Source of the DNA: Desulfobacterales bacterium
GTDB taxonomy: Bacteria; Desulfobacterota; Desulfobacteria; Desulfobacterales; JAUCGF01
Reading direction: 5' to 3'
Assembly: GCA_029940345.1 (NCBI GenBank)
Contig: JAOZRC010000047.1
Coordinates: 1 to 15,364, forward strand
DNA length: 15,364 nucleotides
Made by a program: the position numbers and the translations under genes. The notes below the pieces were generated by a model, which did not search any database, had not been told where the DNA came from, and saw only the letters and a list, made by a program, of their open reading frames with translations. Positions 9,317 through 13,945 of the stretch are shown in pieces (positions within the stretch are counted from its first letter, which is position 1; each line of letters opens with the position of its first letter).

Positions 9317-9602
9317 TTCTCGGTGGGCATCTTATTCAAATCATATGGTGTTATCGTAGCCGTTCATTCCTTCCCCTAAATGGAACGGCATGGGATTTGC
9401 ATTTTAGCCCATTAGTCTGTAGTTCGGGTTACGCTTCGCTAACTCGACCTGCGAATTTTTCAACCGCACAGGTCGACAATGCGACCTGCGTGATTGACAT
9501 AAAATGTAGGGTGGGCAGCGTTTTTTTAACCTGTACGGTTCATACCTGATGACAGCGCAAAGCGACATACTCCGTTAAATGAAACCGCTTTTGCCCACCG
9601 GT
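9317..9602. other. Non-coding stretch with repeat fragments
   Basis: No believable gene is seen. It contains a weak inverted repeat GCCGTTC/GAACGGC (9359-9365, 9383-9389) without a T-run, and a TCGGGTTACGCTTCGCTAAC segment (9424-9443) of a kind common in dispersed bacterial repeats. A short hairpin CAGGTCG/CGACCTG lies at 9469-9475 and 9482-9488. ATGTAGGGTGGGCA (9504-9517) is identical to the end of the element at 13723. No clear terminator for the GT-C gene is visible. Confidence 0.5.
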
Positions 9603-9641
9603 TTATATCGATACGGCAGGCATTGCCGACAAAGATCTGTG
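9504..9641. repeat. Degenerate copy of the GTAGGGTGGGC repeat family
   Basis: It starts with ATGTAGGGTGGGCA (9504-9517) and contains TGCCCACC (9592-9599). It ends with a 35-base segment (9607-9641) that matches 10609-10643 at 32 of 35 positions. The same modules, GGTGGGCAT.GCCG and CTTTGTCGG, occur in the element at 13723-13901. The right edge lies inside the coding relic that starts at 9806 and supplies its last codons. Confidence 0.6.
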
Positions 9642-9806
9642 ACCTGCGGCAGGTCCTGCGAATTCGACGGTTTCAACAGCCGGCTTCCCCTTATGCCGTT
9701 CAAAAGTGACTGGCCCGAACACGTTAAATTCGGCAGCACGGACATAACCTGTAAGAATGCCTATCATAAAAATAAGCCCGGCGATATTCAAAATTTTTCT
9801 TTGCAT
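9603..9806 (-). pseudogene. 5' fragment of an exported protein gene, cut off by a repeat
   Basis: The start at 9806 is chosen because AAGGAGGAG lies just upstream, a very strong ribosome binding site; a longer frame from 9866 would begin inside the terminator hairpin. The first ~24 residues (MQRKILNIAGLIFMIGILTGYVRA) are a classic signal peptide with cleavage near YVRA-AEF. The next segment, EFNVFGPVTFERHKGKPAVETVEF, resembles the mature N-terminus of large secreted surface proteins that I recall from delta-proteobacteria (FGP.TF.R..GKP pattern). From about residue 50 the frame is encoded by a dispersed repeat (9607-9641 and adjoining bases), and it stops at 67 residues. The rest of the gene is not found leftwards. 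A promoter, cyclic-di-GMP riboswitch and terminator precede it. The family assignment is tentative; the truncation is directly seen. Confidence 0.6.
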
Positions 9807-9850
9807 CTTCTCCTCCTTTTCAGTGATTGACAGACACTTGAAATACAAAC

Positions 9851-9880
9851 AAAAAAAGCCCGGCAAAAATATTGCCGGGC
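9851..9880 (-). terminator. Intrinsic terminator between riboswitch and the truncated gene
   Basis: A perfect 9-bp stem (9858-9866 with 9872-9880, GCCCGGCAA/TTGCCGGGC) has a 5-base loop. Read on the minus strand it is followed by seven T residues (9857-9851). It lies 45 bases before the start codon at 9806 and about 110 bases after the GEMM aptamer. It could therefore be the expression platform of the riboswitch, or simply end read-through from the operon to the right. Confidence 0.8.
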
Positions 9881-9989
9881 TTTAAAAACGTTGTAATATA
9901 GGGAAAGGTTACAGAAGCTGATGATATATATATATGGCTGTATCAGATATAGGACGGGTATGATGAAGGGATTGAAAACAGCTTTTCAT

Positions 9990-10072
9990 TTTCAGTAACC
10001 TCGCTATCCGGGTGTCTGTCCCGGACCGAAAGTTTTGCGTCCCTGTCTTGCGACAGGTTTGCCTTTGTCGGT
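9990..10072 (-). ncRNA. Cyclic di-GMP-I (GEMM) riboswitch aptamer
   Basis: Read on the minus strand, the class I cyclic-di-GMP aptamer modules appear in order. GGCAAACC (10063-10056) comes first. P2 has a 5-bp stem CTGTC/GACAG closed by a GCAA tetraloop (10056-10043). GGGACGCAAA follows at 10043-10034. P3 has a perfect CCGGG/CCCGG stem (10024-10020 with 10012-10008). GATAGCGAGGTTACTG (10008-9993) is the 3' junction, matching the canonical GGUAGC.GGGUUACC. The GNRA loop of P2 is the element that docks into P3 in this family. Downstream on the same strand lie a terminator and the start of an exported protein, the usual setting for these switches. Outer P1 pairing looks short, so the exact ends are approximate. 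Confidence 0.9.
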
Positions 10073-10106
10073 TGAAGCCGGTGTCTGTTTATGCTACAAG
10101 CAATAA

Positions 10107-10134
10107 ATTATAGTTTGTATGCAAAAATTGTGCG
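10107..10134 (-). promoter_or_regulatory. Promoter for the GEMM-controlled transcript
   Basis: A perfect TATAAT (10112-10107 on the minus strand) lies 35 to 40 bases before the riboswitch aptamer. A weak -35 candidate, CGCACA (10134-10129), is 16 bases upstream. Transcription would start near 10100. The -35 side lies a few bases from the edge of the palindromic element starting at 10141. Confidence 0.5.
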
Positions 10135-10140
10135 ATATTT

Positions 10141-10279
10141 GGCATCCTTCATTTTCCGCTTAACACTTTAAAGGAGTGCTGAACCAAAGGTTTAGCGTTT
10201 ACGCTGGCCTTTGCTAAACCTTCGGTTCAGCACTCCCCATGAAAGTGTAAACTACTTTTAAGCTATTATGAAGGATGCC
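10141..10279. repeat. Complete GGCATCCTTCA-family nested palindrome (copy B, 139 bp)
   Basis: Perfect terminal inverted repeats GGCATCCTTCA (10141-10151) and TGAAGGATGCC (10269-10279) flank the element. Sub-terminal arms pair as well: CTTAA.ACACTTT on the left, and AAAGTGTAAACTACTTTTAAG on the right. The core is a hairpin with a 24-position stem and one mismatch (10173-10196 with 10213-10236, starting GGAGTGCTGAACC) around a 16-base loop. No protein is encoded. It looks like a small non-autonomous mobile element. Confidence 0.85.
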
Positions 10280-10465
10280 CGATATTTCAAAGTCTATTTT
10301 TCATCGAAATATAACACGCTGTATTTTCATATAAAAACTTTTTATTTTTGTCATCGAGAATACCTGCGGCAGGTGTCAGCCACACAGAAATGTGACATTT
10401 TTTGTATTTTTCATGACAATAATTGTTACAATCGACGAGTGGGCGGACTTTTCATAGGAATTTTT
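10280..10465. other. AT-rich spacer between two palindromic elements
   Basis: I see no gene, RNA or convincing terminator here. It carries CCTGCGGCAGG (10371-10381), a sequence also present within the relic region near 9645-9655, in an otherwise AT-rich background. Confidence 0.4.
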
Positions 10466-10608
10466 GGCATCCTTCAATTTGCCTTAAAAGTGGTTTACAC
10501 TTTTCTTCGAAATGCCAAACTTACAGGTTGGCGGTTGATAAGCAGCTATGCTGGTAACTGCCAAACTGTAAGTTTGGCACTCCGTTTTTAAAGTATAAAC
10601 CGTTTTTT
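10466..10608. repeat. GGCATCCTTCA-family nested palindrome (copy C, right end replaced)
   Basis: The left end GGCATCCTTCA (10466-10476) and the block CCTTAAAAGTGGTTTACAC are present. The core hairpin begins with a perfect 13-bp pair TGCCAAACTTACA (10513-10525 with 10567-10579), continues imperfectly inwards to a 24-position stem, and ends with CACTCC (10579-10584). The right sub-terminal arm (AAAGTATAAACCG) remains, but the expected GAAGGATGCC end is absent. Instead, the segment at 10609 belonging to another repeat family begins. The core sequence is unrelated to that of copy B. Confidence 0.75.
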
Positions 10609-10742: not shown

Positions 10743-11174
10743 CTACGCTTTTTGAAACGTATAAGTCAGTTGTCCGTTTTTAGTTTCAGTCACAACCGCC
10801 TTCATATTCATATCCACCTTTAATGCATCTGATGGAACTGAGCCGTCGATGCGTCCAAACACTTTAAAATCGCCGAAATCCACCAAGGCGATGGTATAAG
10901 GCAGATCAGCTTTAAAACCGGAAGGCGCATATTTCAGCGCACTGTAACTTACCAGTTTCCCGGCGCCGGTCACTTCGAACCACTCCATATCACTGTCCAG
11001 CGAATGATAGCAATCCGCCCGTGGAGGGAAAAACTTCACGCCGCAGGTTTTGCAGCGAGCGCCCATTAATTTACCCTGTTCCAGATAATCAATAAAATCG
11101 TTCACACGCGTTACATCCGTGAAACTCACGGTTCCGAATTTGTTAAACCGCGCATCTATTTCCTTTTTGGCCAT
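10743..11174 (-). CDS. DUF35 Zn-ribbon/OB-fold protein, thiolase partner
   Basis: The length of 143 residues is normal for the family. Residues ~35-60 are the rubredoxin-like zinc ribbon (C41, C44 in ARCKTCG; C55 in FPPRADC). Residues ~64-140 are the OB-fold with the typical EWFEVTGAGKLVSYSAL and DFGDFKVFGRIDG strands. The usual second CxxC is degenerate: where relatives read CPxC, this protein reads CYHS, leaving three Cys and a His (H57) as possible ligands. DUF35 proteins bind SCPx/archaeal-type thiolases and HMG-CoA synthase and shape or bridge the CoA pocket. The ATG follows the thiolase stop after two bases and has GGAGAG upstream, partly inside the thiolase end, so the pair is coupled. 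BbsA of the benzylsuccinate pathway is a known example of such a thiolase subunit. Confidence 0.88.
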   Translation of the reverse strand: MAKKEIDARFNKFGTVSFTDVTRVNDFIDYLEQGKLMGARCKTCGVKFFPPRADCYHSLDSDMEWFEVTGAGKLVSYSALKYAPSGFKADLPYTIALVDFGDFKVFGRIDGSVPSDALKVDMNMKAVVTETKNGQLTYTFQKA

Positions 11175-13722: not shown

Positions 13723-13901
13723 ATGTAGGGTGGGCATCGCCGGAGACCAACCCTGAGATATAACGCCAGTCTTTGTCGGCGATGCCCACCGTTTCAAATA
13801 AAACCGGTGGGCAAAGGCTGTTGCTTTTAAAGAGGTGCGCCACTTTGCCTGATTATCTGTTATAAACTTAGGTGAATGCCAAAACGTTGCCCACCCTACA
13901 T
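13723..13901. repeat. GTAGGGTGGGC-family palindromic element (179 bp)
   Basis: Perfect 14-base terminal inverted repeats, ATGTAGGGTGGGCA (13723-13736) and TGCCCACCCTACAT (13888-13901), flank the element. Inside the left half is a perfect 14-bp hairpin (13729-13742 with 13777-13790, GGTGGGCATCGCCG). AAACCGGTGGGCAAAG follows. It fills most of the 268-base gap between bamQ and bamA. Fragments of the same family lie at 9504-9641 and 10609-10682. No protein is encoded. Confidence 0.8.
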
Positions 13902-13945
13902 ATAATCGCAACCATACAGGTTGAAATTTATTGATTAAAGAAAAA

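Follow-up and report, generated by a model that had tools for sequence, protein, structure and literature searches.

The window analysed here, the whole stretch of 15,364 nucleotides from a metagenome-assembled genome (MAG) of a Desulfobacterales bacterium, carries on its minus strand a c-di-GMP-I (GEMM-I) riboswitch aptamer at positions 9990 to 10072, followed downstream by an intrinsic terminator, a ribosome-binding site and the start of a reading frame that ends in a repeat. Upstream of the aptamer, and likewise on the minus strand, lies a cluster of bam genes, the last of which ends some 670 nt away from it. Between positions 1800 and 9316 the window encodes a carbamoyltransferase and two PMT_2 genes as recognized by Pfam, as well as a glycosyltransferase-like gene and a B12-binding/radical-SAM-like gene, both assigned by eye. 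In G001, the sole congener compared, the bam cluster is syntenic, with a nucleotide identity of about 90%, and the long homology stops at 10744, the last bam gene; comparison of the rest of the window with the 19-kb G001 stretch yielded no alignment besides repeat matches and a 95-bp match of 1393-1485, and the last PMT_2 gene had no match in G001 at E ≤ 1e-20. G001 possesses eight RF01051 matches, none of which lies on its bam contig, C26. The bam cluster was considered as client of the riboswitch and rejected, as it is positioned upstream of the aptamer and is syntenic in the congener on a contig without an RF01051 match; its adjacency to the riboswitch is incidental.

The RF01051 (c-di-GMP-I) covariance model matched the segment 10072..9990 of the minus strand with 71.0 bits, as compared to a family cut-off of 35, and with a whole-genome E-value of 1.5e-13, which excludes a chance origin. 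The first-pass annotation, which had read a c-di-GMP riboswitch on the minus strand from the letters alone and had proposed this Infernal run as its check, is thereby borne out. When all 139 RF01051 matches with E ≤ 0.001 in 58 genomes (host included) were ordered by E-value, the window aptamer ranked 34th, and it is therefore a normal member of the family rather than a decayed copy; a match over the cut-off was present in 36 of these 58 genomes. In a cmscan of the entire window, RF03167 (c-di-GMP-I-GGC) matched the same minus-strand segment, 10072..9990, with 65.5 bits (cut-off 59, E 7.7e-14) and was the single match of the window at gathering scores, after one overlapping match of the same clan had been set aside. 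Alignment and sequence inspection located GGCAAACC, a GCAA-capped P2, GGGACGCAAA and the GGUUAC junction. Thus, GGCAAACC, P2 and GGGACGCAAA stand among the core modules listed earlier, while the P3 stem described as perfect is so only in its distal part (CCGGG/CCCGG), its proximal part being imperfect as judged by eye from the cmscan alignment. The window RNA genuinely belongs to an established class of riboswitches.

Three residues were mapped through the structure line of the cmscan alignment, namely a G at 10063, 5' of a paired GC, an A at 10036, 3' of the partner of this GC, and a C at 9995 within the GGUUAC junction. We take these positions to be G20, A47 and C92 of the known structure and regard them as the probable ligand contacts. 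In excerpts of two published studies, nucleotide 20 is described as the selectivity residue (PMC6274999; PMC6456294), and an exchange of A to G at this nucleotide is described as converting one cGAMP-selective GEMM-Ib riboswitch to c-di-GMP (excerpts of PMC6456294). On the basis of G20 and this A-to-G effect, c-di-GMP is predicted to be the ligand of the window aptamer. Six GGDEF matches, one of them with an internal stop, were found in the host genome.

The region 3' of the aptamer had been described as gene-less; this does not hold, since a ribosome-binding site, AAGGAGGAG (9810..9818, minus strand), and an ATG at 9806, located at +184 after the aptamer, open an ORF of 67 codons (9806..9603, minus strand). 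The aptamer thus occupies the 5' leader position of a gene that is truncated in this assembly: codons 1-49 (9806..9660) match the N-terminal end of a protein of 569 aa, and the remainder of the frame reads into a repeat. Using the first 51 residues of the remnant ORF as query against 291 genomes of the order (E ≤ 0.1), matches were obtained in the host and in 16 other genomes. The best of these others, in G120, reached an E-value of 2.5e-8 with 55% identity over 38 aa, the remaining matches having E-values of 2.4e-4 or worse. Scanning 11 of the 16 other matched loci with Rfam detected a c-di-GMP-I aptamer just upstream of the match only in G120 (66.9 bits). This locus, L118, is the record of the Desulfobacteraceae MAG isolate S20.Bin143 (100% match) and carries an intact gene of 569 codons, the ATG of which is located at +188 after the aptamer. 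The suggestion of the first-pass annotation that the gene served by the riboswitch is broken is therefore supported by an intact homologue behind a matching riboswitch in one relative. The L118 protein has a signal-peptide-like start and a region with an FGP motif and appears repeat-rich by eye; a 554-residue stretch of it gave only a sub-threshold Pfam match to Glucodextran_B (23.6 bits, cut-off 27). At L119, a second homologue from a gammaproteobacterial MAG with 33% identity, no riboswitch was found. Between the window and L118, the aptamers share 72 of 84 aligned positions and the regions of the ribosome-binding site 26 of 34, whereas the flanking spacers are identical at 35 of 65 (54%) and 84 of 164 (51%) positions, values inside the range of shuffled sequences of the same spacers (mean 48% and 46%, maximum 61% and 53%). 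These identities indicate that the two units are homologous, with the aptamer, the ribosome-binding site and the protein start as the parts that were kept.

Upstream of the aptamer, a sigma-54-type promoter box, TCGCACAATTTTTGCA, was found at 10120..10135 (minus strand), which agrees with the consensus at 10 of 12 positions and scores at p 0.010 against 200 Markov-resampled sequences. A sigma-54 promoter has GG at -24, separated by 10 nt from GC at -12; here, the GC and the spacing are kept and the -24 element reads CG. The box aligns with the similarly placed TGGCGCAATTTTTGCT of the relative, within an upstream block matching between the two loci (TCGCACAATTTTTGC as compared to TGGCGCAATTTTTGC); the relative's box likewise keeps 10 of 12 positions, and its score was reached by none of 200 resampled sequences. 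The first-pass annotation had placed the riboswitch's own promoter at a TATAAT (10107..10112, minus strand). While its position 35-40 nt upstream of the aptamer was correctly given, its role as a promoter is not supported: no -35 partner is present within the rules of the promoter scan, for which reason a sigma-70 promoter was rejected here, and the hexamer probably overlaps the start expected from the sigma-54-type box. The sigma-54-type box is hence more likely to be the promoter than the TATAAT, although this assignment is weakened by the fact that one of the two -24 G bases is missing and that 10 of 12 positions correspond to only p 0.01. Boxes of this quality precede three of the five transcription units in the host genome (window included), three of seven in G001 and four of 29 loci from other relatives, some of the latter lying inside tandem arrays where the upstream stretch is another aptamer. 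Within this sample, sigma-54-type boxes before these riboswitches are accordingly frequent in the genus and rarer outside it. A literature search for a c-di-GMP riboswitch joined to a sigma-54 promoter found no paper, and one on GEMM riboswitches and RpoN in Geobacter gave a single genome paper. The counts suggest that some c-di-GMP riboswitches of the genus stand behind sigma-54-type promoters, in which case regulation at the promoter may be followed by a second control at the riboswitch.

A young MITE of 139 bp (10141..10279) is inserted against the -24 box. The element has terminal inverted repeats, is present as many near-identical short copies and is flanked by a target-site duplication, CGATATTT, at 10133..10140 and 10280..10287, the eighth base of which was assigned by eye. 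In the host genome it matches at least 27 other places at 92% identity or more (40 of 598 candidates scored), and 17 of the 20 copies inspected show an exact 7-bp duplication and three show none, an eighth base being visible by eye in several. The matching duplications on both sides of the MITE support the assembly on this side of the locus. Moreover, both duplication copies carry the CG, so that the -24 CG predates the insertion, unless a full box never existed at this site. Any enhancer sites located further upstream would have been shifted by about 147 bp through the MITE. A more diverged repeat related to this element lies at 10466-10602 of the window, its best four copies elsewhere in the host genome having 82-84% identity.

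Between the aptamer and the ribosome-binding site, 106 nt from the former, lies an intrinsic terminator consisting of a 12-bp stem followed by TTTTGTTTGT (9855..9883, minus strand). The segment 10109..9845 was folded thermodynamically, either free or constrained for the 20 consensus aptamer pairs. Under the constraint, the mean pairing probability of the aptamer pairs rose from 0.49 to 0.86, while that of the terminator was 0.96 in the free state and 0.97 with the constraint. Switching by the terminator thus found no support in the thermodynamic model, and no anti-terminator was seen.

The cause of the gene's truncation may be sought in the repeat at its junction. For repeat E3 (9478..9641, boundaries approximate), scoring of 40 of 221 candidates gave at least 43 other matches in the host genome, which span 57-165 bp and are 69-81% identical. 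Seven other E3 copies all keep, in some form, a terminal part that is absent from the window copy, and the gene remnant starts exactly where this part is missing. A clean insertion of the repeat into the gene is unlikely, because the window copy lacks its own end at the junction. The simplest reading is that the gene beyond about codon 49 was probably removed by a deletion or rearrangement that reached into E3. Dating the truncation by the age of E3 was rejected, since the E3 copy is itself cut and an old repeat can be reached by a young deletion. A search of the host genome with the 554-residue stretch of the L118 protein (E ≤ 0.01) detected no piece besides the remnant itself; the host assembly is a MAG of 1024 contigs and 93% completeness, and the body of the client gene could consequently sit in a gap. 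A further E3-type copy is located at 13770-13921, between two bam genes, and has 72% identity to the copy at 9478-9641.

The four other riboswitch units of the host genome precede ORFs with signal-peptide-like starts, as judged by eye. In the unit on contig C786 (L016:2128-2663), the aptamer reaches only 38 bits and is followed by an ORF of 71 aa, whose three best matches in G001 are frames of 291 (the closest, 77%), 948 and 809 aa; a dockerin-like stretch follows in frame after the stop, as seen by eye, and this client, too, looks truncated. Truncated clients therefore seem to be present in two of the five units of the host genome, of which the C786 unit has a weak aptamer and the window unit a strong one. 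This pair fits a course in which the gene is lost first and the aptamer decays later, the window copy representing the younger loss, although the low score at C786 could have other causes. If so, one genome may display an earlier and a later stage of such decay, and the two units could help to estimate the survival time of an aptamer that has lost its client. The unit on C314 (L013:2323-2398; 66.4 bits with RF03167) is followed by an ORF that comprises at least 1142 aa and is PKD-like by eye. Its terminator appears, from inspection of the sequence, to be built from the 3' end of the aptamer, so that ligand binding should prevent termination (ON switch). This aptamer and one of the copies on C384 (L014:4167-4243) have an A at the mapped position 20, that is, the cGAMP type. 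The C384 copy scores under both cut-offs, with 22.7 and 22.3 bits, and precedes a G20 copy (64.6 bits) that itself lies before a PEP-CTERM-like ORF.

Head-to-tail arrays of GEMM-I aptamers were observed in relatives, with six aptamers at L120:391-907 (G010:C109:690-1206), five at L121 (G018:C75), four each at L122 (G018:C79), L123 (G039:C102) and L124 (G021:C1), and three at L125 (G046:C110). All members exceed the RF01051 cut-off except the third in G046 (31.1 bits), and overlap removal by cmscan leaves 4, 3, 2, 4, 3 and 1 aptamers for L120 to L125, respectively. Downstream of five of these six arrays lie ORFs that encode 152-169 aa and contain a Q[ASG]G[IF] motif. For c-di-GMP-I, 347 doublets and 12 triplets are given in excerpts of PMC9481103, in which no mention of arrays of four or more was found.

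We propose that the locus is the 5' leader of a lost gene, of which the aptamer, the terminator, the ribosome-binding site and the first codons remain after truncation, and assign this reading a probability of roughly 0.78. Following this, a canonical c-di-GMP-I aptamer would be transcribed leftward, probably from the sigma-54-type promoter, and c-di-GMP would once have controlled a large secreted protein, as the arrangement in the Desulfobacteraceae MAG suggests, until a deletion or rearrangement ending inside the repeat took away the coding sequence beyond about codon 49. Should transcription still be initiated, mostly a leader RNA of about 255 nt reaching to the terminator would be expected, and some read-through would allow a 67-aa peptide to be made. 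The aptamer is predicted to be competent to bind, and its output would be a terminated leader RNA and little else, to which we attribute no current function; the switch has probably lost its job. Against this reading, the terminator and the ribosome-binding site are undamaged and the 49 codons contain neither stop nor frameshift, so that the unit may still be in use. Under this reading, the locus is a clear case of a riboswitch that outlived its gene.

Alternatively, in line with the second possibility raised by the first-pass annotation, selection might have kept the aptamer after the loss of the gene as a stand-alone, ligand-responsive short RNA ending at the terminator. This would agree with the undamaged aptamer (71.0 bits, 34th of 139), with the strong terminator 3' of it and with the weak aptamer (38 bits) of the C786 unit, whose client likewise looks truncated; however, an intact aptamer is equally explained by a recent truncation. 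Folding provided a further argument in the form of an anti-aptamer helix between AGGUUACUGAA and UUCUGUAACCU, which prevails in the free state (P 0.98) but disappears once the aptamer pairs are constrained. This helix was rejected as a switching element, since 53 of 2000 Markov-resampled spacers do as well and the relative shows no such helix beyond chance, its value being reached by 962 of 2000. Moreover, in the folding model the terminator is unaffected by the aptamer, the promoter box is imperfect and the MITE abuts it. Retention of the aptamer by selection is thus unlikely, and slightly more doubtful still is the fuller version in which the aptamer, the sigma-54-type promoter and the terminator all outlasted the gene and were kept as an independent small RNA of about 255 nt that responds to ligand. 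That the switch still acts on the 67-aa ORF to yield a short secreted peptide is similarly improbable: the frame is open and has kept its ribosome-binding site, start codon and signal-peptide-like N-terminus, but the last 18 residues come from beyond the homology and run into the repeat, the one riboswitch-linked match belongs to a long protein, and the matches outside G120 have E-values of 2.4e-4 or worse. An assembly artefact, in which the true gene continues and the contig was misjoined inside the repeat, is very improbable despite the fragmented MAG (1024 contigs, 93% complete), the position of the junction at a multi-copy repeat and a congener whose bam locus lacks the riboswitch side and in which the last PMT_2 gene is unmatched (E ≤ 1e-20), given that the E3 matches seen elsewhere share only 69-81% identity with the window copy, presumably too different for the usual short-read mis-join, and that a search of all contigs gave no additional fragment of the gene.

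The reading as the leader of a lost gene may finally be set against known systems. With the RF01051 class, the window shares the core elements, the c-di-GMP-type residues and the position 5' of the start of a secreted-protein gene; it differs in that the client here comprises only about 49 codons and in that the terminator is separate from the aptamer and without predicted switching. As for c-di-GMP-I-GGC (RF03167), the window copy lies over the cut-off (65.5 as compared to 59 bits), whereas it has an A, the residue taken as A47, at model position 37, where the consensus is G, and RF01051 scores 5.5 bits more. This consensus G is presumably the middle G of the name 'GGC'; if so, the window copy looks like the plain c-di-GMP-I type by its position-37 A. 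The GEMM-Ib (3',3'-cGAMP) riboswitches of Geobacter have the same fold and order of parts as the window RNA, in which, by contrast, residue 20 is a G. A further counterpart is the L118 unit of the Desulfobacteraceae MAG S20.Bin143, which has a similar aptamer, near-equal spacing, a related promoter box and ribosome-binding site and a homologous protein start; in contrast to the window, its gene is intact, its -24 box has the full GG, and no canonical terminator is listed between aptamer and gene.
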